Origin: an uncultured Candidatus Berkelbacteria bacterium
Lineage (GTDB): Bacteria; Patescibacteriota; UBA1384; CAILIB01
Reading direction: 5' to 3'
Assembly: GCA_937895715.1 (NCBI GenBank)
Contig: CALBLZ010000150.1
Span: 1 to 13,602 of the forward strand
Length of the DNA stretch: 13,602 bases
This document shows, piece by piece, positions 969 through 12,963 of this stretch. The notes beneath the pieces are model-generated. The model was given only the letters and a program-made list of their open reading frames with translations, was not told the origin of the DNA and ran no database searches. The position numbers were made by a program, and so were the translations under genes. The stretch's first letter is position 1. Each line of letters starts with the position of its first letter.

Positions 969-2423
969 ATGCATCGCTCACCTACGCGCCTACACGTAAT
1001 TCTATGGGGTCTCAGCACCCTCTTCACCACCTGTTTTACTTGGGCGCTTATCGCTGCCAAGCTTGATCCTGATTTTGGTTGGCGCATACGACACGGACAG
1101 CTTATCCTCGAGCGCGGCATCAGCACGGTAGACCCCTTTTCCTACAGCATGCCCTCCTATCCGTTTGTGAGTCATGCCTGGAGCTTCGATATTCTGCTGG
1201 CTTATACGGATAGAACAATTGGTCTTGTGTGGCTTAGCTTAGGAGTCGCGATACTTGTACAGCTTCTGTGTGCAACTCAAACTTGGAAGCTACGATTCTC
1301 TATACGCGGCGCTCTACTCAATCTCGTGGTTATGGGAGCCTTGATTACTACTCTTGGTCTACGTGCTCAAGTAGTCGCACTCGCTTTGGTAACGTATGCA
1401 CTCTGGCTGATACTGCTACCGGAGGATCGTTGGCGAATATGGCGCTGGACCATACCAACCCTGGCACTGTTTTGGGCAAATACACACGGCAGCTTCCTGC
1501 TACTCACTCTATTGCTTTTAGTCAGGTGGGCTACAACAGTCTATACGAGTAAAAAACTACAGCCAGTTGATTTCTTACTCGCAACAGCAACAATCCCCCT
1601 CAGCCTCATTAACCCCTATGGCTCCTTGTTGTGGTTTGAGGTGTGGCAAACACTCAGCGACAGCTCTCTCGGGCAACGTATCATTGAGTGGCAACCTATT
1701 TGGAGGATACAGACAGCGAGCCAGCTCCTTGGACTGGTCTTTGTGTTATGGGGGGCAGTACTTACCTTTACCCACCGGAAACAGTACCCACTCCACGCGG
1801 TAGTAATGCTCGTCTGTGGGTTGTTAGCTATCTCAAGTACGCGACACTTACCGCTCGCGGTACTGATGGCTCTCTTTGCTCAGGTACGAGCGCCATTTGT
1901 AATCCCCGAAGGGTTTTTGAGTCGCCTTTCGAAGGATCGGCTGCTTTCATATATATTTGGAATCGCTACCCTTGCGATTACCACACTTACCGCAGCAAGT
2001 TACGTGTTTGCATTTACCTGGACAACCACTGCTTCTCAGGCCACTGTTCCTAAACAGGCCCTACCTTGGTTACGCGAATACCTACCAAGCGCCCGACTGT
2101 ACGCACCGTACGACTGGGGAGGGTACCTCATTAAGAACCTGCCTAATTCCAAACTGTTTATCGATAATCGAATGCCAAGCTGGCGTTGGCAGGCGCCACC
2201 GGGAGAAGTAGATGCAGCCATGGACATATATGCCCGTGTTTACTTAGGTGATGTGGATGAACTACAGAGAATACTCCAGCAGTTTTCCGTGCAGGCAGTA
2301 TTGGTGCGGCGGAATGATCCATCAGATAAGACCGAGTCGGCTATCCGTGCGCTAGGCTGGCTTGCTGTGTACCAAGATGCAACGGTTACGGTGTATCAGC
2401 CAGCGGCTCGTACGCAAGAGTAA
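969..2423 (+). CDS. GT-C-like polytopic membrane protein, putative lipid-linked glycosyltransferase
   Basis: 484 residues, strongly hydrophobic, with roughly ten membrane segments and a soluble C-terminal part. The first extracytoplasmic loop carries DPDFGWRIRHG (33-43), then VDPFSYS and FVSHAWSFD. This acidic-rich first loop, with D33 and D35, resembles the catalytic loop of GT-C glycosyltransferases, which use polyprenyl-phosphate sugars. A second conserved-looking block near residue 380, YAPYDWGGYLIKNLP followed by LFIDNRMPSW, is typical of this large, mostly uncharacterised membrane family. Start is the first in-frame ATG; it has no Shine-Dalgarno, and a -10-like box lies 6 nt upstream. 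The last 38 nt overlap comF on the opposite strand. Substrate is unknown. Membrane location is confident, enzymatic role is inference. Confidence 0.85.
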   Translation: MHRSPTRLHVILWGLSTLFTTCFTWALIAAKLDPDFGWRIRHGQLILERGISTVDPFSYSMPSYPFVSHAWSFDILLAYTDRTIGLVWLSLGVAILVQLLCATQTWKLRFSIRGALLNLVVMGALITTLGLRAQVVALALVTYALWLILLPEDRWRIWRWTIPTLALFWANTHGSFLLLTLLLLVRWATTVYTSKKLQPVDFLLATATIPLSLINPYGSLLWFEVWQTLSDSSLGQRIIEWQPIWRIQTASQLLGLVFVLWGAVLTFTHRKQYPLHAVVMLVCGLLAISSTRHLPLAVLMALFAQVRAPFVIPEGFLSRLSKDRLLSYIFGIATLAITTLTAASYVFAFTWTTTASQATVPKQALPWLREYLPSARLYAPYDWGGYLIKNLPNSKLFIDNRMPSWRWQAPPGEVDAAMDIYARVYLGDVDELQRILQQFSVQAVLVRRNDPSDKTESAIRALGWLAVYQDATVTVYQPAARTQE

Positions 2424-3000
2424 TTGCCTGGATAGAATGCGCGCCCACTAGCAGCTCTGCGCACGCAGTTAGCGTGGCACCTGTAGTTAGCACGTCGTCT
2501 ACCAGGACGACATCTCTACCCAAAACCGAACCGCGGGAGAAGTACTGGGACTGGGCGTGTAGTCGCCGATCTGAGCGACTCAGACCGACGAGCGACGTGC
2601 CGTTTCTACGACCCAGCACCTTGGTACTTACCGTGGGGCCAGATGCCTGAGTAAGCCCCCGGGCTAGTAATTCGGCTTGGTTGTAACCACGTTCCCGCAA
2701 CCGCTGGGATGAGCTAGGAATGGGTACCACCAGCGCACCTGGTGGGATGTATGCCACTGCTTGCAACAGGTATGGGGTAAGTAAGGGTAGGAGTCGGAAG
2801 GCTCCCTGGTACTTTAGTGCGTGGACTACGTGACGTACTACCTGAGTACGGAAGTTTAGAACCGAGTAGGTGTTTCCCCAGGCAAAGGGGGTGCATATTT
2901 CTGCGTTACCCATTTGGCCTACACATTCTGGGCACACAAGTAACCCGGGTTTAGCACAGGCAACGCAGTAGTCCGGAAATAGATGTCTAAGAAGATCCAC
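2386..3000 (-). CDS. comF: ComF family protein (amidophosphoribosyltransferase-like)
   Basis: 204 residues, close to the usual ComF size. The N-terminal zinc-ribbon-like cysteines are intact as two CxxC pairs (C12/C15 and C23/C26). A phosphoribosyltransferase domain follows, with RLRERGYNQAELLARGL (about 100-116) and the PRPP-binding motif VVLVDDVLTTGAT (164-176), both classic ComF signatures. Family knowledge: ComF is needed for inward DNA movement during natural transformation in several bacteria and acts at the cytoplasmic face of the membrane. The start is GTG at 3000, without Shine-Dalgarno. An extended -10 box (TGC TATACC) ends 6 nt upstream, so the mRNA may be leaderless. The 3' end overlaps the convergent membrane protein gene by 38 nt. 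Confidence 0.93.
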   Translation of the reverse strand: MDLLRHLFPDYCVACAKPGLLVCPECVGQMGNAEICTPFAWGNTYSVLNFRTQVVRHVVHALKYQGAFRLLPLLTPYLLQAVAYIPPGALVVPIPSSSQRLRERGYNQAELLARGLTQASGPTVSTKVLGRRNGTSLVGLSRSDRRLHAQSQYFSRGSVLGRDVVLVDDVLTTGATLTACAELLVGAHSIQAITLAYEPLADTP

Positions 3001-3006
3001 TCACTT

Positions 3007-3015
3007 GGTATAGCA
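3007..3015 (-). promoter_or_regulatory. Extended -10 promoter for comF (leaderless type)
   Basis: Read on the minus strand: TGC-TATACC, a 6-nt gap, then the GTG start codon at 3000. The TGn extension may compensate for the lack of a recognisable -35. It lies in the 40-nt gap between comF and the upstream PMT gene, so comF need not depend on PMT transcription. Confidence 0.5.
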
Positions 3016-3040
3016 AGGTCGACCTTACACCAGGATTAAC

Positions 3041-4384
3041 TTAGTACGTAGCCGTAGCGGCTAACCAGTTAGGCAACCAAGTGTGTTCTTGTACCTGCTG
3101 CTGAGTCATGCTTATCCATCCAATGCTCCAGGGCAAGAAGTACATAAAACTAAGAAACCCGAGCCCAAGAAAGAGGAGAACCCAGTGCGGTCGAGCTGAC
3201 CAAAGCTTGCGTAGCCAGAACACTAAAATAATCAACGCAAAACCGTAGGCAGGCAAGTAGTGGTACAAAAAGATTACCCGACCAATAAACGCCCAGGGCA
3301 GCCATGCCGCAAAGTAGCCAATGAGGTACGGGGTTAGTTCGTGGTTCCACACGGCACGCAGGTACTCCCTTGGCTTAAGGAGCTTTCCTTTAACCAGCAT
3401 TGAGTCCCAGAAAATCCACAGCACGCTCCCAAGCGTCAGTGCGCTACTCGCCCACCACCAGAGCGGGTTGCCAATCGTCGTCATAATACGGGCGCTGCCA
3501 CTTTGGAGCGTGTCGTAGATAAGCAGGACAGGACGGTCCATAACCGGCCACGTGTACCACGGAGAGCTCCACGGATGGGTTGCCGTTAAGTGTGCATGAT
3601 ACGAAGCTGTTTGCGAGTGCCACTCAACCACAGCAGCATAGATGCTTGAAATCCCCCGCGCTCCGTCGAGCCACTCGCCAAAGGCAACCACTAGCACATA
3701 CACAACGAGTGAGATGCCTAAACTACCAAGAATGCGCAGGTACTGTTTATCTCGAATGGTAAACCAGAATACTGCCGGCAACACTGCCGCCGCTGGCCAC
3801 TTGATCGACACCGCGAGTCCGAGTGCGATGCCAAAGAGCGCCATACTCCGTCCATCTCTTACCCTGGTTCCAAGATAGAAAGCTAAGAAAGTTGCCAGAA
3901 ACAGCACGCCATCCATTAGCCCCACCCTGCTGTACACAATCAATATCCCCTCAAGCGCGATAATTATCGCCATCATCCAGGCGCCGATTCTGTCATTGAA
4001 GAGTCGCCAGTACATCAGAGACATACCGAAGATCAATAGACACCCAGCAATGAGCGGCATAATGCGCCAACCAAAAAAGGTATCTCCAAATAGCCAAATA
4101 CCGCCGGCAATTATGAGCTTGCCCAGCGGCGGGTGTACATCAAAAACATCAACTCCCCCTAGGTACTGTGTGGCCATAACCGGAAAGTAGACTTCGTCGA
4201 ATACCTGCTTTTCAGGAAACGTAATGTTCCAGATTCGCACGAGTAGACCAAAAAACACGGCCACTGCCGTAAACCAGAGAAGCACTTTTTCCGGTTTGGT
4301 GAGAGACGCATACCAACGCATGCACCTATCTTGCCACGCACTAACCACCGAGGCAACTTCTAGAGTCAACCTGGCTTGCAGCAA
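3041..4384 (-). CDS. PMT family (GT39) dolichyl/polyprenyl-phosphate-mannose protein mannosyltransferase
   Basis: 447 residues with many membrane helices. The PMT signatures are in place: FDEVYFP with the acidic pair D63-E64 in the first external loop, DVHPPLGKLI (83-91), GWRIMPLIAG, YSRVGLMDG and, near the C terminus, FLYHYLPAYGFALI. Family knowledge: PMT enzymes transfer mannose from a polyprenyl-phosphate carrier to Ser/Thr of exported proteins, with the active site outside the cytoplasmic membrane. The length is shorter than eukaryotic PMTs (no MIR domains) and fits bacterial ones. The start is uncertain: TTG at 4384 has GGGGGA 9 nt upstream, while ATG at 4321 would give 426 residues with a short cytoplasmic tail before the first helix. 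The neighbouring GT-C-like gene suggests surface glycosylation; substrate is inference. Confidence 0.93.
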   Translation of the reverse strand: MLQARLTLEVASVVSAWQDRCMRWYASLTKPEKVLLWFTAVAVFFGLLVRIWNITFPEKQVFDEVYFPVMATQYLGGVDVFDVHPPLGKLIIAGGIWLFGDTFFGWRIMPLIAGCLLIFGMSLMYWRLFNDRIGAWMMAIIIALEGILIVYSRVGLMDGVLFLATFLAFYLGTRVRDGRSMALFGIALGLAVSIKWPAAAVLPAVFWFTIRDKQYLRILGSLGISLVVYVLVVAFGEWLDGARGISSIYAAVVEWHSQTASYHAHLTATHPWSSPWYTWPVMDRPVLLIYDTLQSGSARIMTTIGNPLWWWASSALTLGSVLWIFWDSMLVKGKLLKPREYLRAVWNHELTPYLIGYFAAWLPWAFIGRVIFLYHYLPAYGFALIILVFWLRKLWSARPHWVLLFLGLGFLSFMYFLPWSIGWISMTQQQVQEHTWLPNWLAATATY

Positions 4385-4444: not shown

Positions 4445-4840
4445 ATGAGCAGCTTGCCTATCATGGGTAGCCAGCCGATTGTTGACCCAACCGAGTGGAT
4501 GGACGAGTTTGAGGGTCAATTAGCTATCGACGTCTACCAAACCGAAGCCGAAATTGTTATTAAAGCCCCGATTGCCGGTGTTCGCCAAGAAGATCTAGAG
4601 GTTAACGTTACTGATGAGCAAATCACCATTAAAGGTGAGCGTCACGATACCTCATCAGCTGAAGTAGAAGGCTACATGGTACAGGAGTGCTACTGGGGAA
4701 GTTTTACTCGCACGTTTGTATTCCCCATGGCAGTCGATTCTGACAAAGCAACTGCTAAGTTGGTAGACGGCATCCTCACTATCTCTGTACCCAAAGCTGC
4801 CAAAGCGCGCACCCGCACGCTCCACGTTGCCACAAATTAA
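4445..4840 (+). CDS. Hsp20/alpha-crystallin family small heat shock protein
   Basis: 131 residues. An alpha-crystallin domain spans about 26-117: it begins AIDVYQTEAEIVIKAPIAGV, has the EDLEVNV and ITIKGER strands, and closes with LVDGILTISVPK (106-117), the family's end-of-domain signature. A short C-terminal tail with LHV (126-128) resembles the I-x-I/V oligomerisation motif. Family knowledge: these are ATP-independent holdases in the cytoplasm that keep unfolded proteins soluble. The start at 4445 is fixed by a strong AAGGAGG ending a few bases upstream; an in-frame ATG at 4376 would add 23 residues lying under the predicted promoter and is not preferred. It is the first gene of the operon: galU follows after 8 nt. 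Confidence 0.95.
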   Translation: MSSLPIMGSQPIVDPTEWMDEFEGQLAIDVYQTEAEIVIKAPIAGVRQEDLEVNVTDEQITIKGERHDTSSAEVEGYMVQECYWGSFTRTFVFPMAVDSDKATAKLVDGILTISVPKAAKARTRTLHVATN

Positions 4841-4848
4841 CGCTCCGT

Positions 4849-5745
4849 ATGACCGCGCACAAGCCAGTTAGGAAAGCAGTCATTCCTGTTGCGGGGTATG
4901 GAACACGGTTCCTTCCCTACACCAAATCGATCCCAAAAGAGATGCTCCCGATTGTGGATCGTCCGATTATTCACCATGTAGCAGAAGAAGTTGCTGCTGC
5001 CGGCATTACTCAGATCGTTCTGATCACCGGCATGAATAAGCGAGCTATCGACGACTACTTCGACTACAACACGGAACTCGAGATGCTCCTTGAGAGCCGC
5101 GGCAAGCATAGTCATAAAAAGATAAGTCGAGAAGCATCGGATCTCGCGCACTTTGTCTACGTTCGCCAGAAAGAACAGCTCGGCAACGGCCACGCCGTAC
5201 TACAAGCCAAGGGATTAATTGCCGAAGATGAGCCCTTCTTAGTAGTTTGGGGCGATGAAATGTTTATGGGGTCACCGTCAAAAGTAGAGCAGCTCGTGGC
5301 CACCTACGAGGAGCATGGCAAGCCTGTAATCATGACGATGGAAAATGATGCAGACGAGGCGTACTCCAGCTACGGGTACATCGTTCCAGGTGAAGATTAT
5401 GGTAACGGGATTCGCCAGGTAACCGGATTTGTAGAAAAGCCCGGTAGCCGTGAGGCAGCACCTTCTTCATTTGTTTCCTATGGCTGCATGGTGCTCACTG
5501 GTGACATTTTCCGCTACCTCGAAGATCAAAAGCCTGGTCACGGAGGTGAAATCGTCTTGGGAGAAGTGCTGGGTCGATACGCAAAGGAAAACACCCTGCT
5601 CTCTAAAGAGATTACAAATCTCAAGTATTTCGACTGCGGCAGCCGCCTTGGCTACATGCAGGCAACAGTTGAGTACGCGCTCAAACGAGAGGATATTGGA
5701 AGTGAGTTCAAATCATACCTACAAGAGCTCTCCACTAAGTTGTAA
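4849..5745 (+). CDS. galU: UTP--glucose-1-phosphate uridylyltransferase
   Basis: 298 residues, the normal size for GalU. The nucleotide-binding N terminus reads KAVIPVAGYGTRFLPYTKSIPKEMLPIVDRPII, with the GxGTRxLP loop (16-23) and catalytic-region K30-E31-M32. Further signatures are VVWGDEMF (metal-binding Asp), SYGYIVPG, TGFVEKPG and FDCGSRLGYMQATVEYAL. Family knowledge: GalU makes UDP-glucose from UTP and glucose-1-phosphate in the cytoplasm for surface polysaccharide and glycolipid synthesis. The start ATG lies 8 nt after the Hsp20 stop and has no Shine-Dalgarno, so translation is probably coupled. The stop is 2 nt before the solute-binding lipoprotein gene. Together with rmlB at the window start it points to active sugar-nucleotide metabolism. 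Confidence 0.97.
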   Translation: MTAHKPVRKAVIPVAGYGTRFLPYTKSIPKEMLPIVDRPIIHHVAEEVAAAGITQIVLITGMNKRAIDDYFDYNTELEMLLESRGKHSHKKISREASDLAHFVYVRQKEQLGNGHAVLQAKGLIAEDEPFLVVWGDEMFMGSPSKVEQLVATYEEHGKPVIMTMENDADEAYSSYGYIVPGEDYGNGIRQVTGFVEKPGSREAAPSSFVSYGCMVLTGDIFRYLEDQKPGHGGEIVLGEVLGRYAKENTLLSKEITNLKYFDCGSRLGYMQATVEYALKREDIGSEFKSYLQELSTKL

Positions 5746-5747
5746 CT

Positions 5748-7226
5748 ATGTCTCGCACCATCACCAAACAACCTGCGCTTCTGCAACGGCTCCGATTAGC
5801 CGGCCAGTTTAGCCTCCTTATTGGTGTTGGTCTCCTCGCAACTGGTTGCAGCTCTGGAAGCAGCACAGATACCACTTCAACTACAAATACAATCGAAATC
5901 CGTATTTGGCGCATGGGCCAAGCCCCACAGGATAATAACCTGCTCTCTCGTCAGATTAAGAGCTTTAAAAAGAAGTATTCCTCAGCCAAGTTGAACATAG
6001 AGTTCACACCAGTCAGTGCAGCAACCTACGAAAACGACGCCCTGCGCTCCATGGCTGCCCGCACTGGCCCTGAGATTTGGAGCCTCCCAAGCGACTGGAT
6101 TGGCGATCACACCCCCCGCATTAGCACCCTTCCCGATAACTACTTCTTTGCTCGTGACAAGAACGGTAAGGTTGCCAAAACTGGTCCAAACCCAGTCGAC
6201 CAAGTACGCGAGCTCTTTCCAGCAGGTATTGTCGAGCAGATTCTTACCACCGATGGGAAACGTGTATACGGAATCCCAACCGAGGTTGAAGGCCTCATGC
6301 TGTACTACAACTCTGACCTCTATTCCCAAGCTGTTGATGATTTCAGATCATCTCTTGGCGCCAGGCCTAGTGTAGACCAGATAAAGCCGGTTGAGACTAT
6401 CCTTTCCAACCCCCCTGCAACCTGGCGAGATCTAGTGGAACAAGCAAAGTATCTAAACCGACGCAGTGGGGCAAATATTCTACGCAGTGCCATTGCTCTG
6501 GGAACAGCAGACAATGTAGGGCCAGCCAACGACATCTTGCAGCTCTTAATGCTTCAAAATGGTGCGCAGGTTGTGAGTAGCGACCGCCGCAACGCGCTGT
6601 TTAACGCGCCAATCACCACTCCGGCTGGAGTAAAGTTGGTGCCAGGCGAAGAAGCGCTAAAGTTTTATGCCTCTTTCTCCAATCCAGACTCTGCTGTGTA
6701 CTCGTGGAACAGCAGTATGCCCCAAGCCATCGATGCGTTCGGCCAGGGCAAGGTCGCAATGATTATTGGCTACGGCGATATTGAACAGCAGCTGGCCATC
6801 AAGTATCCGCGGTTCGACTTTGATAAAGCTCCCGTTCCACAAAACTCGCTTACCGAGCCAGCAGTTAACCTTATCCGCTTTGCTGTAGACACGGTAACAC
6901 GCGCCCCAAAGAACGATACCGATAAAGCTGGCGCTTTTGCTTTTCTCAATACCTACACCGAAATTGGTTCAGTAGGTAGTATCGCTGGCTCAACTGGCAA
7001 ACTCTCACCGTACAAGGCTACCCTTGAGAAATCAGGCCGCCAGAGCGCATTTGCTCAGCAAGTACTCACCGGCAAGGCAGTGTACAAGCGCTCTCGTACT
7101 GAATTTGACGAAACCTTCCGCCAGATAATCGTTGACACTACAGTTAATCGTGTTGCTCCGATCACCTCACTCAATGTGGGTGTAGAAAAGATTACTACCA
7201 TACTACAGAAGCCTGATAGTCTATGA
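5748..7226 (+). CDS. Extracellular solute-binding lipoprotein (family 1, sugar-binding-like)
   Basis: 492 residues. An N-terminal signal with basic residues and a hydrophobic core ends LLATGC, placing the lipid-attachment Cys at 34. The -3 residue is Ala rather than the usual Leu, a mild deviation. A Ser/Thr-rich linker follows, then the solute-binding fold: IEIRIWRMGQ, KYSSAKLNIEFTPV, VYGIPTEVEGLMLYYNSDLY, TWRDLVEQAKYL and, later, FGQGKVAMIIGYGDIEQQLA. These match family 1 (MalE-like) sugar receptors of ABC importers. No permease or ATPase gene lies in the window. Instead the gene is embedded in an operon with pilin-like proteins: 2 nt after galU, and its TGA stop overlaps the next ATG (ATGA). 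Ligand unknown. The protein could serve as a surface receptor rather than a transporter part; that is inference. Confidence 0.9.
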   Translation: MSRTITKQPALLQRLRLAGQFSLLIGVGLLATGCSSGSSTDTTSTTNTIEIRIWRMGQAPQDNNLLSRQIKSFKKKYSSAKLNIEFTPVSAATYENDALRSMAARTGPEIWSLPSDWIGDHTPRISTLPDNYFFARDKNGKVAKTGPNPVDQVRELFPAGIVEQILTTDGKRVYGIPTEVEGLMLYYNSDLYSQAVDDFRSSLGARPSVDQIKPVETILSNPPATWRDLVEQAKYLNRRSGANILRSAIALGTADNVGPANDILQLLMLQNGAQVVSSDRRNALFNAPITTPAGVKLVPGEEALKFYASFSNPDSAVYSWNSSMPQAIDAFGQGKVAMIIGYGDIEQQLAIKYPRFDFDKAPVPQNSLTEPAVNLIRFAVDTVTRAPKNDTDKAGAFAFLNTYTEIGSVGSIAGSTGKLSPYKATLEKSGRQSAFAQQVLTGKAVYKRSRTEFDETFRQIIVDTTVNRVAPITSLNVGVEKITTILQKPDSL

Positions 7227-7534
7227 AGACTCTCCTGCTCCAAGTTGGCAGCCTACTCCCCACGGCCGACCCTCGTTTGGCTGATCCAGGACTCAGCCCA
7301 AATGTTGCTGCTGGCATCCTGATTAACCAGGTGCTCAATATTCTCCTGGCTATCACCATCCCTTTAGCCACTGTGGGAATAATCGCGATTGCATTCCAGA
7401 TGGTGACTGCCAATGGCAAACCAGACGCCATGGTAAAACTTAAAAAGTATATGGGGTACCTGGTAGTAGGCATCGTTTTGGTCGTAGGAGCCCTGGTGTT
7501 CCTTCGCACATTCATTAGGGCAGCACTCGGTTAG
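7223..7534 (+). CDS. Small two-helix membrane protein, divergent T4SS-pilin-like paralog 1
   Basis: 103 residues. Two predicted membrane helices, about 34-60 and 76-97, are joined by a short basic loop (NGKPDAMVKLKKY, 64-76). This is the topology and charge pattern of the TrbC/VirB2-like 'T4SS pilin' proteins encoded just downstream, although the core GD-KK-EAR motif is degenerate here: GKPDAM-KLKK replaces it. The N terminus is short and less clearly a cleavable signal. The start ATG overlaps the preceding stop by 4 nt and the next gene starts 1 nt after its TAG, so translation is coupled. Family membership is inferred from topology and context; function unknown. It could be a minor subunit or a membrane anchor of the assembly. 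Confidence 0.75.
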   Translation: MKTLLLQVGSLLPTADPRLADPGLSPNVAAGILINQVLNILLAITIPLATVGIIAIAFQMVTANGKPDAMVKLKKYMGYLVVGIVLVVGALVFLRTFIRAALG

Positions 7535-7535
7535 T

Positions 7536-8189
7536 ATGACTCACAAACCTCGACGCTTTCTCGGCAAGATCGCCCCGGCTCAGGCACCACGCCAGCAGAA
7601 CGCCCAGCGCGCTCCGCGGAGTGCAAGCAGTGTCTGGTCACTCTTTTTTCTGTTACCGGTTGTACTTGGTGCTGTTCTGATCACCCAACCTACTTTCAAT
7701 TCATCCGAAAACAACCAGAACACATCCCCTCGCAGTGGAGAACTCCGTGACAGCAGTGGCCCTCTCAACCGAACCCTCGGCGCTAATCCGGTAGTCCCAG
7801 CAGTTGGTGTCTGCGAGCGGCTGCTCAATGATATAAAGGCTGCTCCGCTGTTCCCGTTTATACCGGATGTCCTTCTCTCTAAAGACCCAACCGGGTGTAG
7901 ACCCGCAGTATGGAGCCGCTCGGTCATTCTATTCTTACTCTACCGTGGCCTTGCGCTGCTCAACTGGTTTGCTGCTGGATTAGCAATTATTCTCACTGTT
8001 GTCGCCGGTCTGTACTACATGGCAGGGTTTGCAAATGAAAACACGGTTAAAACAGGCAAGAAGTTCCTGGTGGGCGTGTACGTAGGGGTAGCCATTATTC
8101 TCTTTGCGCAGCTACTGGTGCGAGCCACCTTCAGCGCCCTCAATCCCGGCCGCGTTGAGGACGCAATTAGCGAACAGCTAAACAATTAG
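7536..8189 (+). CDS. Pilin-like membrane protein with long N-terminal extension (paralog 2)
   Basis: 217 residues, about twice its neighbours. A basic, Gln/Ala-rich cytoplasmic tail (1-30) precedes a membrane helix (about 33-50). An 80-residue hydrophilic segment follows, rich in Ser/Asn and probably external, carrying two cysteines (C93, C121) that could form a disulfide. The C-terminal part (about 129-200) is a two-helix hairpin whose middle, YYMAGFANENTVKTGKKFLVGVYVG, parallels the pilin hairpins of the adjacent genes. So the protein reads as a pilin-like hairpin fused to an anchored extracellular domain. It starts 1 nt after the previous gene and ends 2 nt before the next. No family recognised for the extension; function unknown. 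Confidence 0.75.
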   Translation: MTHKPRRFLGKIAPAQAPRQQNAQRAPRSASSVWSLFFLLPVVLGAVLITQPTFNSSENNQNTSPRSGELRDSSGPLNRTLGANPVVPAVGVCERLLNDIKAAPLFPFIPDVLLSKDPTGCRPAVWSRSVILFLLYRGLALLNWFAAGLAIILTVVAGLYYMAGFANENTVKTGKKFLVGVYVGVAIILFAQLLVRATFSALNPGRVEDAISEQLNN

Positions 8190-8191
8190 GT

Positions 8192-8584
8192 ATGCCCCAT
8201 CTCCTTACTTCCTATGTGACGCTAGCTGCTGTCTGGATACTGCTTCTGCCCTCCCAGGCACAGGCTGCGCTCATCCCAGACCCGGGTAACGCATTCACGA
8301 GTGGCGCAAATACAACTCGCCTGACTAACCCTACACTCGGTTACAATAATATTGAGGGCATCTGGAACCGCTTCCTTGCAACTGCCTTCCTGGTATTCGG
8401 GGCAATTGCGCTCATCTATATGATCTGGAACTCCATACGCTATATATCTAGCAATGGGGACCCAAAAAAGATCCAGGAGGCACGTCAAGGGATTATCTAT
8501 TCCTCGCTTGCAATTGTGATTATTGTCACCGCCTACTTCATAATAAATTTCATTATCGGCGCTGCCGAATTACTATTTAACTAG
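8192..8584 (+). CDS. T4SS-pilin-like (TrbC/VirB2-type) membrane protein, paralog 3
   Basis: 130 residues. A signal peptide ends near SQAQA-A (about residue 25). A roughly 30-residue external segment follows, then two membrane helices (about 59-80 and 100-122). The core NSIRYISSNGDPKKIQEARQGIIYSSLAIVIIVTAYFI (80-117) matches the shared motif of this set: I-W-x-G/S-x-R/K-Y, then G-D-x-K-K, EAR and YFI. Family knowledge: VirB2/TrbC pilins are small signal-peptide-bearing two-helix proteins assembled into conjugative or type IV secretion pili; many such genes in Patescibacteria are uncharacterised. It lies 2 nt after paralog 2 and 4 nt before paralog 4, with no ribosome binding site of its own. 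Confidence 0.85.
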   Translation: MPHLLTSYVTLAAVWILLLPSQAQAALIPDPGNAFTSGANTTRLTNPTLGYNNIEGIWNRFLATAFLVFGAIALIYMIWNSIRYISSNGDPKKIQEARQGIIYSSLAIVIIVTAYFIINFIIGAAELLFN

Positions 8585-8588
8585 CCCT

Positions 8589-9011
8589 ATGTACGAGAAA
8601 ATATCCACCCTTTCGAGGCGCCTAGCAGCGGTCTGCGGAACAGCATACCTACTACTAGCGGATTCTGTCCTAGCCGGCACAGCTAACATACCTGACGTAC
8701 GACCCACCGACCCAGGAACTGTAGGTCCAGTGACTGGTGTAGCCAACAACTTAGTAACCTCAGCGCTTAACATCCTAATTTTCATTGCTGGAGCAGTCGC
8801 GGTTATCTTTGTGATCTGGGGTGGCTACAAGTACATTACATCAGCAGGCGACCCAAAGAAGGGCGAAGAGGCGCGCAAAACCATTATCAACGCCATGATT
8901 GGTATCATGATTGTAGTAGCCTCTTACTTCATTGTTCGTGTAGCAATTAGCGCAGGACAGACCGTCACCACGGTAGACAGTGGTATAAATGGAGCAATTA
9001 GGTTCAGGTAA
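8589..9011 (+). CDS. T4SS-pilin-like (TrbC/VirB2-type) membrane protein, paralog 4
   Basis: 140 residues. Signal peptide ending near DSVLA-G (about 29), external linker with Pro/Thr/Gly (30-55), helix 1 (58-78, IFIAGAVAVIFVIWGG), polar loop YKYITSAGDPKKGEEARK (80-97), helix 2 (98-118, ending SYFIVRVAI). It aligns without gaps with the protein at 9082-9495 across the hairpin, both having NxxLF/IFxAGAVAVI at residue 61 and GD-KK at 87-91, so the two arose by duplication. It is the last gene of the tightly packed operon: 4 nt after paralog 3, and followed immediately by a strong promoter for the next paralog. Predicted role is membrane pilin or surface subunit; unproven. Confidence 0.87.
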   Translation: MYEKISTLSRRLAAVCGTAYLLLADSVLAGTANIPDVRPTDPGTVGPVTGVANNLVTSALNILIFIAGAVAVIFVIWGGYKYITSAGDPKKGEEARKTIINAMIGIMIVVASYFIVRVAISAGQTVTTVDSGINGAIRFR

Positions 9012-9012
9012 T

Positions 9013-9042
9013 TTGACATCTCTATCTGACCGAATCTAGAAT
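9013..9042 (+). promoter_or_regulatory. Strong sigma70-type promoter for the fifth pilin-like gene
   Basis: A perfect TTGACA (9013-9018), 18-nt spacer, TAGAAT (9037-9042). It begins 2 nt after the stop codon of paralog 4. Predicted transcription start is near 9049, leaving a 33-nt leader that carries AAGGAGG (9071-9077) four bases before the ATG. One of the best promoter and ribosome-site combinations in the window. Confidence 0.75.
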
Positions 9043-9081
9043 AGATACATAACTTTGATTAATACCTTCTAAGGAGGCCAC

Positions 9082-9495
9082 ATGCGATCCGCAATAACTA
9101 CTTGGTCATCTCGACTACTCGCCAGCACAATGGTTCTGGCTGCAACCGCCAGCACAACCCTTGCTGCAAGCTTCGACATCTTGAACCCAGATGAAAACGC
9201 GGGAAAAGGCTCTCTAAACAACTTTGAAGGATTTGCCGGAAACGCCTTCCAGTCGGTAATTAACATTATCCTCTTCGTAGCTGGCGCCGTAGCTGTTATT
9301 TACCTCATCTGGGCCGGTTTCCGCTACATCACTGCCGGTGGCGATACTAAGAAGGCAGATGAAGCGCGCAAGGGTATTATTAACGCCATCATTGGTATCA
9401 TTGTAATTGTCGCAGCCTACTTCATTGTTCGTGTAGCAGTAAGTGCCGGCACAGCTACTACCGACATCGACAGCACGGGCCAAATATTTGAATAA
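9082..9495 (+). CDS. T4SS-pilin-like (TrbC/VirB2-type) membrane protein, paralog 5, probably highly expressed
   Basis: 137 residues. Signal peptide with an Ala/Thr-rich core, cleavage likely near TTLA-AS (28-29). External segment FDILNPDENAGKG with NNFEGF, helix 1 (58-78), loop FRYITAGGDTKKADEARKG (80-98), helix 2 (98-118, ending AYFIVRVAV), acidic tail. It is near-identical in layout to paralog 4. Unlike the other paralogs in the operon it has its own TTGACA promoter, a canonical AAGGAGG and an immediate strong terminator, so it forms a separate single-gene transcript. That is what one would expect of a major structural subunit made in excess over the minor ones; this is inference. Confidence 0.88.
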   Translation: MRSAITTWSSRLLASTMVLAATASTTLAASFDILNPDENAGKGSLNNFEGFAGNAFQSVINIILFVAGAVAVIYLIWAGFRYITAGGDTKKADEARKGIINAIIGIIVIVAAYFIVRVAVSAGTATTDIDSTGQIFE

Positions 9496-9507
9496 GCACG
9501 CTTATTC

Positions 9508-9541
9508 AAAAAGAACTCCGGGAAACCGGAGTTCTTTTTTT
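9508..9541. terminator. Bidirectional intrinsic terminator
   Basis: AAAAAGAACTCCGG (9508-9521), GAAA tetraloop, CCGGAGTTCTTTTT (9526-9539), continuing to a seven-T tract. The 14-bp stem has a stable GNRA loop. The A-tract on the other side makes it usable by the convergent division-protein gene too. A smaller hairpin, GAATAAG/CTTATTC (9490-9507), overlaps the stop codon just upstream. Confidence 0.9.
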
Positions 9542-9553
9542 ATCTTCTTTTTT

Positions 9554-9952
9554 CTATAGAAGCTCATCTGCCCAGAGTCGCCAGTTAGGTGTAGGCACCG
9601 CCGTTGGTTTAGCCACTACTGTTCCCACTACCCGGGTATCGACATCGAGCTGGGCAACCTTACTCGACTCGGGTAGTGCATATACAGTTTCCCCTGGTCG
9701 CACCAGAAGCAGAGCGCGACGCAATTCTTTTTCTTTAAAGGCATCAGTGCGGTAGTAGACGACAAGCGACTCTAGTCGACTGCGCTCAAGCTGCACAGCT
9801 GCAAGTTGCTGTTGTAGCTGAAGAATCTCCTCTTGGGAGTTGTAATTACGAAGTGCTGCCTGGCCTGCTGAGTACCCGAGGTAGGTGGCAATAATCACAA
9901 AAGCAACGTAGGCGCCGTACGCTTGTAGGAGAGCTGAAACTTTTGTCTGCAT
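9554..9952 (-). CDS. DivIC/FtsB-like septum formation initiator family protein
   Basis: 132 residues from ATG 9952. A short cytoplasmic start is followed by one membrane helix (about 10-28, YVAFVIIATYLGYSAG). A coiled coil follows (about 35-60, EEILQLQQQLAAVQLERSRLESLV), then YYRTDAFKEKELRRALLLVRPGETVYALPE, the conserved block after the coil in DivIC/FtsB (Y-x-T/D, E-x-A/L-R, L-x-x-V-x-P-G-E). Family knowledge: these bitopic proteins join FtsL and FtsQ/DivIB in the divisome at the septum. An in-frame GTG at 9985 would add 11 residues, but a TGG-TATACT extended -10 box lies between the two starts and ends 7 nt before ATG 9952, so the shorter, possibly leaderless form is preferred. Convergent with paralog 5. 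Confidence 0.88.
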   Translation of the reverse strand: MQTKVSALLQAYGAYVAFVIIATYLGYSAGQAALRNYNSQEEILQLQQQLAAVQLERSRLESLVVYYRTDAFKEKELRRALLLVRPGETVYALPESSKVAQLDVDTRVVGTVVAKPTAVPTPNWRLWADELL

Positions 9953-9959
9953 TGCCTGT

Positions 9960-9968
9960 AGTATACCA
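9960..9968 (-). promoter_or_regulatory. Extended -10 promoter for the DivIC-like gene (leaderless type)
   Basis: Minus strand TGG-TATACT, then ACAGGCA, then ATG 9952. The core TATACTACAGG is identical to that before the antiporter gene (10655-10665). Predicted transcription would begin at or within a base or two of the start codon. No good -35 was seen. Confidence 0.55.
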
Positions 9969-10014
9969 GAGCAGACGGGTAGCACAGAGGTATGTAACGA
10001 CTTCGCGCAGAGGC

Positions 10015-10560
10015 TTACCGGGCGCCAAACATTTGTACTGTCACAAGCTGAGTAGCACCGGCTGCATCGGTAGTTTCAATGGTGGCGTAGCCAACATCGG
10101 TATATCGATCCGAGAGTAAGTTGGCCTTATGTGATGGACTGTTGTACCAAGCTGCGGTGATGCCCTGAGCAGTCTTGAAACCACGAGCAAGGTTTTCACC
10201 AGCTACCGAATACTTGTAGCCAGCTTCGGTAATGAAATCCCAAGGCGCCTTGTTATCATCAGGGCGAAAGTGATCCCAGTATCCTCGAGCGAGCATGTCT
10301 GCAGCCTTGCTTTCAGCTGCCTGCATCAGGTTAGGGTTTAGCGAGAGAGGAGCACGACCTGCAGAACGACGAATTGCATTGGTTTCTGAAAGGAAAGCCT
10401 CGGGTGAGAGGTCGTCTAACGCCCCCTGCGTTGCGACAGAACTCACGGTAGGCAACGTTGTTGCATATACGGGAACTACGGGAATCATCCCGTAGGTAAG
10501 CGCCGCACCAGAGGCGAGTGTGAAGATCTGACGGATTACAACCGAAAGCGTACGATTCAT
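10015..10560 (-). CDS. Secreted CAP-domain (SCP/PR-1, YkwD-like) protein
   Basis: 181 residues from ATG 10560. An N-terminal signal or anchor (about 12-33, ending PVYA-T) precedes a CAP domain (about 52-181): FLSETNAIRRSAGRAPLSLNPNLMQAAESKAADML, then WDHFRPD with H97, GENLARG with E122, AWYNSPSHKANLL with H144, and DVGYA. These give the conserved His/Glu cavity residues of the superfamily. Family knowledge: bacterial CAP proteins are exported, and their biochemical role is mostly unknown. An upstream in-frame start at 10623 would overlap the promoter (-10 at 10606-10611), so the ATG at 10560 is preferred. The leader is very A-rich and lacks a clear ribosome binding site. Ends 62 nt upstream of the DivIC-like start. 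Confidence 0.92.
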   Translation of the reverse strand: MNRTLSVVIRQIFTLASGAALTYGMIPVVPVYATTLPTVSSVATQGALDDLSPEAFLSETNAIRRSAGRAPLSLNPNLMQAAESKAADMLARGYWDHFRPDDNKAPWDFITEAGYKYSVAGENLARGFKTAQGITAAWYNSPSHKANLLSDRYTDVGYATIETTDAAGATQLVTVQMFGAR

Positions 10561-10605
10561 CTTTTTGTATTTTTTTATTTCCTTTTGTTTTGTGGAAATT
10601 AAATA

Positions 10606-10634
10606 AGTATACGTCAGAATCACCTATTTGTCAA
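10606..10634 (-). promoter_or_regulatory. Consensus sigma70-type promoter for the CAP-domain gene
   Basis: Minus strand TTGACA (10634-10629), exactly 17 nt, TATACT (10611-10606). Predicted start of transcription is near 10599, giving a leader of about 40 nt rich in A, with AAAAGGAAAT far upstream of the ATG. Its -35 overlaps the upstream region of the divergent antiporter promoter. Confidence 0.8.
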
Positions 10635-12433: not shown

Positions 12434-12520
12434 ATTTATGTTCCACTCTTCCAGGTTTGATATATAAGTTTCATATAGTGTCATACAACTTTCCTATTCT
12501 GTTCGGTTTTACTTTTCCTC

Positions 12521-12560: not shown

Positions 12561-12582
12561 TGCCCCCCTGGTAAAGATGTCG

Positions 12583-12588
12583 TATACT
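12583..12588 (+). promoter_or_regulatory. -10 box for the sixth pilin-like gene (leaderless type)
   Basis: TATACT, a 6-nt gap (GACTGT), then ATG 12595. No clear -35 and no TGn extension, so activation by a factor bound at the upstream repeats is possible. Confidence 0.5.
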
Positions 12589-12594
12589 GACTGT

Positions 12595-12963
12595 ATGCGC
12601 ATTACCTTCCCCAAGCTGTCCGACGCACTCTCCCGTGCTGTATGGGGCATTGCCATTGCAACTCCGGGTGGCAGTAGTCTTGCAGGGCCCCAGGTAAACA
12701 CGGTTCTCGACGGTATGACTATGCGGATTGTTGATTACCTCTCCCTGATCGCAGGAGCTGTTGCTATGATCTTTGTAATTTGGAATGGCATTCGGTACAT
12801 GCAGGCAGGTGGAGATACCAAAAAAGCCGAGGAGGCCCGCAAGGGACTCGTGGCGGCTGTAATTGGTGTTGTACTCCTCGTAGCTGTCCGATATATTATC
12901 GCTCTCTCTGTAGGAGCTGGTCAGATAACAGCAGGGACAGTAACCTCTCCGATCGGGTTTTAA
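12595..12963 (+). CDS. T4SS-pilin-like (TrbC/VirB2-type) membrane protein, paralog 6 (unlinked)
   Basis: 122 residues. An amphipathic or weak signal-like N terminus (1-30, with IAIATPGGSSLAG) precedes helix 1 (about 46-64, SLIAGAVAMIFVIWNG). The loop IRYMQAGGDTKKAEEARKG (66-84) carries the shared G-D-x-K-K and E-E-A-R motif, and helix 2 (about 85-105) ends VRYIIALSV. So it clearly belongs with the proteins at 8192, 8589 and 9082 but lies about 3 kb away, behind two unrelated minus-strand genes and the antiporter. The open frame extends upstream to 12457, but the 46 extra residues would cover the palindrome and the -10 box and lack helices or a signal; ATG 12595 is preferred. Convergent with the methyltransferase gene, 38 nt apart. 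Confidence 0.85.
   Translation: MRITFPKLSDALSRAVWGIAIATPGGSSLAGPQVNTVLDGMTMRIVDYLSLIAGAVAMIFVIWNGIRYMQAGGDTKKAEEARKGLVAAVIGVVLLVAVRYIIALSVGAGQITAGTVTSPIGF

Follow-up and report, generated by a model that had tools for sequence, protein, structure and literature searches.

A solute-binding lipoprotein gene linked to type IV secretion pilin genes across Patescibacteria, and its possible role at the cell surface

Introduction

What does a lipoprotein with a predicted sugar-binding fold do in front of a series of pilin genes? The question is raised by a stretch of 13,602 nucleotides (nt) from an uncultured Candidatus Berkelbacteria bacterium (contig CALBLZ010000150.1; the whole stretch is called here the window), in which the gene of a solute-binding protein (SBP) is followed closely by g1 to g5, genes of hairpin membrane proteins that mostly resemble the VirB2-like pilins of type IV secretion systems (T4SS), and further downstream by a sixth paralog, g6. 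A preliminary description of this DNA had proposed that the lipoprotein and the pilins may work together as a surface structure with a receptor, an interpretation that is partly supported by the analysis reported here.

Patescibacteria is a phylum of tiny-celled, probably host-dependent bacteria, and an episymbiotic life is known for some of them. How they recognise and hold other cells is an open question: a T4SS is reported to be essential in one member (PMC10633639), yet no PrgB-type adhesin was detected in a survey of 3,035 genomes (PMC12102498). The SBP studied here is kept beside pilin genes across distant lineages and seems to lack its usual transporter; it may therefore serve cell-surface recognition, and may be how Patescibacteria recognise the surface of another cell.

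Results

The SBP gene and the hairpin genes are linked across the phylum

Synteny was analysed in the best 80 of 121 loci obtained by a genome scan with an SBP profile, all from records whose titles name Patescibacteria or a related candidate group, or read just 'bacterium' (L and G numbers denote individual loci and genomes). The start of each gene in these relatives was taken as the first start codon of its open reading frame (ORF), so that the gaps given are approximate. Hairpin ORFs were present within 6 kb downstream of the SBP, on the same strand, in 66 of the 80 loci, and the first of them followed the SBP at a median distance of 12 nt (50 nt or less in 45 of the 66 loci and 150 nt or less in 58). 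Eight first gaps were longer than 150 nt, the largest being 3.9 kb (L048), and seven first hairpin ORFs overlapped the SBP by more than 10 nt (by 365 nt in L051). In L055, six hairpin genes were located directly upstream of the SBP. Five of the 80 loci end at a contig boundary within about 400 nt. The hairpin profile proved specific here, with 257 of its 277 matches falling in the stretch downstream of the SBP, which makes up 16% of the sequence searched. Furthermore, the Pfam T4SS_pilin model (PF18895; curated cut-off 26.6 bits) had matches in all 15 relatives' genomes tried, each with matches at the SBP locus as judged by coordinates.

The same was seen in a set of 192 genomes drawn evenly across the phylum. 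Hairpins were found within about 1.5 kb downstream in 28 of the 30 best SBP loci of this draw, which were taken from 103 genomes having both an SBP and a PrgI match listed. Among the matches listed, 71 of 105 T4SS_pilin matches from SBP-bearing genomes lay no more than 6.5 kb downstream of the SBP (42 of 64 genomes). When 79 SBPs were placed on a tree, the label for a pilin neighbourhood required 2 changes, versus 7.7 when the labels were shuffled, and it included Berkel-, Doudna-, Sungi-, Nomura-, Buchanan-, Kerfeld- and Kazan-type records. The rows labelled as lacking pilins were five of Microgenomates type, two of Peregrinibacteria type, and L055, whose array is upstream. The tree and the spread of lineages argue, therefore, that the link is old and has been kept at SBP identities below 30%. 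The linkage is thus neither due to chance nor local, and the gene link between SBP and pilins is well supported.

The preliminary description had set synteny in relatives beforehand as a test of its proposal, and the order was indeed retained in most of them; the arrangement turned out to be spread through the phylum. Its conserved unit had to be narrowed. Both galU and hsp20 were rejected as candidate core partners, since galU stood just ahead of the SBP in 29 of the 80 loci (27 of 72 in a stricter count) and hsp20 in 20 (20 of 72).

Most of the hairpin proteins match the VirB2-like pilins

In the window, protein families were assigned by Pfam profile search, and spacing and coordinates were read off the ORFs. 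The products of g3, g4, g5 and g6 scored above the curated cut-off of T4SS_pilin and are placed by sequence in the VirB2/TrbC-like pilin family. The g1 product remained narrowly below two cut-offs (T4SS_pilin, 25.0 versus 26.6 bits; TrbC, 27.0 versus 27.9 bits), and a hairpin gene occupies the same position in L001-L003. No pilin match was obtained for g2 in Pfam; inspection by eye revealed an additional N-terminal hydrophobic segment, an ectodomain and a C-terminal hairpin. It is a divergent relative, matched by a profile that had been iterated on the hairpins of the other genomes (6e-11). Its counterparts in relatives are longer, with ectodomains of up to about 650 aa ahead of the C-terminal hairpin. 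Hence, the 'four small hairpins' of the preliminary description can be kept for g1, g3 and g4, whereas g2 (217 aa, with an ectodomain) is of another build and the hairpins are not all alike. A two-helix hairpin after an export signal was found in the AlphaFold2 model of g5 (helices 2-23, 48-84 and 89-131; mean predicted local distance difference test score 77), the signal being recognised by eye in g3 to g5; none was evident by eye in g1.

Large proteins with hairpins were also observed in relatives. L008 (4090-6336), L009 (11800-13884), L013 (11987-14035) and L015 (4260-6569) each encode a protein of some 680-770 aa that combines a long ectodomain with one or more T4SS_pilin hairpins near the C-terminus, two matched stretches being present in L008 and L009. 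When ten large hairpin-anchored proteins were compared with Pfam at 1e-3, T4SS_pilin was found in eight, a sub-threshold DUF4493 match was seen in L019, and no adhesin family was named; the sequences of L008 and L047 include runs of N. An apparent SBP-pilin fusion in L047 (9725-11533), an ORF that matches both profiles, was discarded, since its two parts meet in a stretch of N and may be separate genes.

The SBP gene adjoins T4SS core genes in some lineages

'VirB4-like' denotes here a match to PF19044 (P-loop_TraG), a model that also matches related ATPases. Among the 192 genomes T4SS_pilin was found in 188, VirB4-like P-loop_TraG in 179 and the VirB3-like PrgI in 177. VirB4-like genes, which the preliminary description had proposed to look for at unlinked sites, are thus present in relatives, where they sometimes adjoin the SBP. 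Because the pilin and VirB4-like genes are nearly universal, nothing can be learned from whether a genome has both an SBP and a T4SS. Distances were considered for 139 of the 147 genomes with an SBP match (one best match each), the best 122 PF19044 matches and 150 listed pilin matches; the other PF19044 matches listed, mostly partial but a few near full length, were set aside. Among the matches listed, SBP and VirB4-like genes were no more than 30 kb apart in 27 of 97 genomes, where at most 6.5 would be expected by uniform placement in 0.9 Mb, with the reservation that the genomes are non-independent through shared descent. SBP and PrgI were within the same distance in 25 of 103 genomes, again among the matches listed. 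In the genomes without a listed SBP (at least one of which, G188, has an SBP_bac_1 match), 30 of 44 listed pilin matches (15 of 22 genomes) were within 12 kb of PrgI, which is no more than suggestive.

The strongest evidence for the link between the SBP and the T4SS comes from L113 and L122. In L113 a gap of 1 nt separates the SBP from PrgI (PF12666, 6e-11), behind which come X and a VirB4-like gene (1e-23). In L122 a single strand carries PrgI, X, a VirB4-like gene and a gene for a PEGA-domain protein, and then the SBP with four T4SS_pilin genes after it. L124 and L125, which are alike, have galU-SBP divergent from PrgI-X-VirB4-like. The SBP is thus encoded with VirB4/VirB3-like genes in these loci (divergently in the latter two), and not in the window. 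In Kazan-like genomes the order galU-SBP-hairpin-hairpin was found, and PrgI follows on that strand after another 8-10 kb; hsp20 precedes galU in L111, L112 and L114, and L121 ends there. Close to PrgI in L114, Pfam named PrgI, P-loop_TraG and a sub-threshold TrbL/VirB6 match (20.0 versus 25.9 bits). The PEGA-domain protein of L122 has 474 aa (5703-7127, - strand) and stands between the VirB4-like gene and the SBP; one of similar size in L114 (8683-10161, - strand) stands between the hairpins and the VirB6-like gene.

Permeases of the BPD_transp_1 family are scarce in SBP-bearing genomes

The SBP has the attributes of a maltose-binding protein (MBP)-type lipoprotein, namely an SBP_bac domain, a lipobox (LATGC, by eye, with Cys34 nearly invariant among relatives) and a predicted bilobal fold, and by its predicted fold it is a maltodextrin-type binding lipoprotein. 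Its profile matched 147 of the 192 genomes at 1e-20. SBP_bac_1 matched 148 genomes, 137 of them with a single match and 11 with a second one. The names of its relatives in databases, such as 'maltose-binding protein MalE' and 'ABC-type glycerol-3-phosphate transport system substrate-binding protein', point to ATP-binding cassette (ABC) importers. Permeases were counted with one family, BPD_transp_1 (PF00528). This family matched 29 of the 192 genomes (28 above the cut-off) and all 14 control genomes, and it was absent from 120 of the 147 SBP genomes, other permease families not having been searched. In the remaining 27 the permease was on another contig (23 genomes) or at least 50 kb away (G152, G169, G189 and G197).

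A second SBP was located within 1 kb of a permease in G034, G064, G128 and G135 (that of G064 being sub-threshold), and therefore importers of the expected layout can be detected here. No BPD_transp_1 permease was seen within 1 kb of an SBP of the type found in the run in any of the 192 genomes, and no cognate permease of this family was found among the 17 window proteins put to Pfam or in the relatives. Nor did Pfam name an ABC permease, a Tra protein or, besides the pilins, a VirB protein among these 17. These results agree with the preliminary description on the absence of such a context, and the dedicated permease pair elsewhere in the genome, which it had named as a refuting outcome, was not seen in the relatives for the BPD_transp_1 family.

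The SBP also occurs in other surface contexts. It was found beside an O-antigen ligase in L054 and L067, next to a VanW protein in L077, two genes from a sortase in L062 and L080, and between a sortase and an immunoglobulin (Ig)-domain protein in L120.

Organisation of the run and its flanks in the window

The run (Table 1) has the order hsp20-galU-SBP-g1-g2-g3-g4-g5 on the + strand, with successive gaps of 8, 2, -4, 1, 2, 4 and 70 nt. The tight packing from galU to g4 (2, -4, 1, 2 and 4 nt) and the fifth paralog behind it had both been read correctly in the preliminary description. The galU product matched TIGR01099 (galU) at 1e-77, yet below its cut-off (260.8 versus 326.8 bits). The start codon of g6 is uncertain, its ORF beginning at 12457.

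Table 1. Coordinates of the gene run and of associated features in the window.
Feature	Position	Strand	Evidence and remarks
hsp20, Hsp20-family small heat shock protein	4445..4840	+	Pfam HSP20 9e-19; opens the run
galU-type nucleotidyltransferase	4849..5745	+	Pfam NTP_transferase 4e-28
SBP, solute-binding lipoprotein, predicted maltodextrin-binding fold; core gene	5748..7226	+	Pfam SBP_bac_8 2e-16; SBP_bac_1 match
g1, pilin-like two-helix protein	7223..7534	+	4-nt overlap with SBP; T4SS_pilin and TrbC just below cut-offs
g2, 217 aa, hairpin-anchored	7536..8189	+	Iterated hairpin profile 6e-11
g3, VirB2-like T4SS pilin	8192..8584	+	T4SS_pilin 40.1 bits; NF045849 42.2 versus cut-off 40
g4, VirB2-like T4SS pilin	8589..9011	+	T4SS_pilin 47.8 bits; TrbC 28.8
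Promoter-like site 5' of g5, TTGACA-18-TAGAAT	9013..9042	+	Consensus match 11/12
g5, VirB2-like T4SS pilin, candidate major subunit	9082..9495	+	T4SS_pilin 50.4 bits
Terminator-like stem-loop ending the run	9508..9539	+	14 pairs, T tail
g6, sixth pilin paralog, 3' of KefB-like exchanger	12574..12963	+	T4SS_pilin 47.6 bits

Promoter matches were as frequent in the region as in shuffles (5 versus 5.1). Sites of at least 10/12 were also counted across arrays: 8 of 47 arrays had one ahead of their last pilin gene, versus 1.5 in letter shuffles, and for earlier genes the count was 11 of 182, versus 4.5. The support for a promoter of its own before the last pilin gene is, judged from these motifs, only modest.

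Divergent to hsp20, the window carries a phosphoribosyltransferase-domain gene, which we take to be ComF-like, and a protein O-mannosyltransferase (PMT) gene (2386-4384, - strand); a relative of the former is present on the opposite strand 5' of hsp20 in many relatives (e.g., L013, L015, L032 and L042). On the 3' side of the run there are genes for a DivIC-type septum protein (9554-9985) and a CAP-domain protein (10015-10623), both on the - strand, and upstream of g6 a KefB-like exchanger (Na_H_Exchanger and TrkA_N in Pfam). The wider surroundings are largely shared by the closest relatives, L001-L003, where PMT, Hsp20, SBP, hairpins, DivIC-type, CAP and KefB-like genes are found, with a further hairpin match past the KefB-like gene.

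Discussion

A proposed detached surface module of the T4SS

The reading that we favour, and to which we give about an even chance, is that the genes of the run specify a surface module of the patescibacterial T4SS, detached from the rest of the system, in which the SBP acts as a glycan-binding lipoprotein for docking or gating. The SBP would be a lipoprotein without a permease that probably binds a glycan and cooperates with the array of T4SS pilins, most likely in the role of a receptor at the surface. A glycan of another cell is suggested as its target by the predicted fold, by the small number of permeases and by the episymbiotic habit of some relatives.

The SBP would be held as a lipoprotein on the outer face of the cell membrane, with a ligand that, in most relatives, no BPD_transp_1 permease would be there to receive. 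The products of g1, g3, g4, g5 and g6 would be VirB2-like pilins, and g5, which is preceded by a promoter-like site, is a candidate for their main subunit; the product of g2 would combine an ectodomain with a hairpin anchor. The pilins would be assembled into a short pilus or conduit, on which proteins of the g2 type might present a domain, by VirB4/VirB3/VirB6-like machinery whose genes lie at other places in the genome, the window genome presumably having a VirB4 part of its own. The SBP would provide the specificity of binding: by attaching to a glycan of the other cell's envelope, or of the cell's own coat, it would dock or gate the T4SS. Most simply, the SBP and hairpins would thus form a surface module whose genes need not accompany those of the VirB4 core.

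Several observations weigh against this reading. Firstly, 45 of the 192 genomes have no SBP match at 1e-20 and only 4 have no T4SS_pilin match, and therefore the T4SS does not need the SBP everywhere. Conversely, hairpins are absent at eight loci with at least 1 kb of downstream sequence (L054, L062, L066, L067, L071, L072, L077 and L080), five of which are annotated and have sortase, VanW or O-antigen-ligase genes nearby, so that the SBP may work without a pilin array. Secondly, the VirB4-like gene was more than 30 kb away or on another contig in 70 of the 97 genomes, for which broken contigs are partly responsible, and in G001, G007 and probably G002 a T4SS core, with a hairpin gene of its own, is on another contig than the SBP. 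Thirdly, a BPD_transp_1 permease is present in 27 of the 147 SBP genomes, and this family was not found in G030, G048, G098 and G184, each with two SBP_bac_1 matches, so that it may be missed or replaced. Finally, no pilin was among the matches listed when the fold of g5 was compared with solved structures, or when these were searched with the pilin profile (best E 0.096); helical hairpins resemble many proteins slightly.

A sharper form of the favoured reading, in which the SBP supplies a recognition subunit that the T4SS had seemed to lack, as an ex-importer receptor recruited early in the radiation for lectin-like docking of the VirB2-like pilus, is offered tentatively, the chances being rather against it. 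As a candidate for recognition, the SBP is concrete: it is widespread, has a predicted sugar-binding fold, and is tied to T4SS pilins and sometimes to VirB4. If this form is true, the SBP, which is found in 147 of the 192 sampled genomes, would represent a novel type of T4SS component and would give episymbionts a lectin-like means to choose a cell and begin T4SS contact. The annotation would also change, since the importer names of its relatives imply a route that most sampled genomes seem to lack.

Other explanations of the link

The SBP could bind instead a surface polymer of its own cell (capsule, S-layer glycan or peptidoglycan fragments), and thereby anchor or position the pilus rather than recognise another cell. 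This would fit the lineages in which no pilins adjoin the SBP and an O-antigen ligase, sortase, VanW or Ig-domain protein is encoded nearby, as well as the galU and protein O-mannosyltransferase genes that flank the run in the window. However, galU adjoins the SBP in only 29 of 80 loci, and the polymer genes were seen in no more than a few distant lineages, whereas pilins are far more constant neighbours; we consider this explanation unlikely.

Shared transcription alone, by which hsp20, galU, SBP and pilins would be co-expressed envelope genes and the SBP would use an unrecognised transporter, appears more doubtful still. It would account for the presence in the run of hsp20 and galU, which have no evident T4SS role, and it gains from the 27 of 147 SBP genomes that have a BPD_transp_1 permease, from the second SBP_bac_1 match in 11 of 148 genomes, and from at least four of these genomes (G030, G048, G098 and G184) in which BPD_transp_1 was not found. 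Nevertheless, the SBP and the hairpins persist together while hsp20 and galU vary, even when the order is reversed (L055) or when they are part of a T4SS run (L122), and the second SBPs that adjoin a permease (G034, G064, G128 and G135) have no counterpart among the SBPs of the run type.

The least probable alternative is permease-less uptake, with the T4SS as an importer: the SBP would capture an oligosaccharide (or some other polymer), which would enter through a conduit built of pilins and driven by VirB4. No T4SS is known to import sugars, and the run has no sugar-use genes besides galU. The predicted sugar-binding fold, the scarcity of BPD_transp_1 and the T4SS components that adjoin the SBP in some relatives speak for it, as does an archaeal DNA importer homologous to conjugation machinery, according to the title of PMC9905601.

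Comparison with known systems

The lipoproteins of MBP-type ABC importers (SBP_bac_1/SBP_bac_8) are of the same family as the SBP and share its lipobox and predicted fold. They differ in their partners, since no permease was seen adjacent to the run-type SBP and 120 of the 147 SBP genomes have no BPD_transp_1 at all. In Agrobacterium, the sugar-binding protein ChvE is connected with a T4SS (VirA/VirB), on which it acts via a sensor kinase that governs vir expression. In contrast, the SBP sits in a run of pilin genes, and none of the window proteins put to Pfam was named as a kinase.

The patescibacterial T4SS itself has been described in PMC12102498 as MPF-FATA-like, with VirB2 arrays of 2-11 genes and a pilin gene near virB4 in 1,135 of the 1,948 assemblies having both. 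It has in common with our loci the T4SS_pilin/VirB2-like arrays, and the PrgI and VirB4-like genes that are found beside the SBP in L113, L122, L124 and L125. Unlike here, no SBP partner was found there, and the terms 'binding protein' and 'galU' are absent from its main text. Similarly, a series of pilin genes belongs to the T4SS of Southlakia epibionticum and was essential in a transposon sequencing (Tn-seq) screen according to PMC10633639; those pilins lie inside the T4SS cluster, and 'solute-binding', 'substrate-binding' and 'lipoprotein' are absent from the main text of that report. Among the openly licensed papers listed, as judged by titles, the beginnings of abstracts and selected passages, no report was found of an SBP joined to T4SS pilins in this phylum. 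Hence, of the arrangement that the preliminary description had called undescribed, the pilin arrays are already published (PMC12102498) and the SBP link may be new.

The nearest idea to the SBP-pilin link, by analogy, seems to be the bindosome of Sulfolobus, in which sugar-binding proteins are likewise reported to be tied to a pilus-type assembly system (PMC4187195). The two would differ in their signal peptides and in the assembly system: the SBP carries a lipobox (by eye) and not the type IV pilin (class III) signal peptide of the bindosome type, and it is here a lipoprotein encoded beside VirB2-like pilins.

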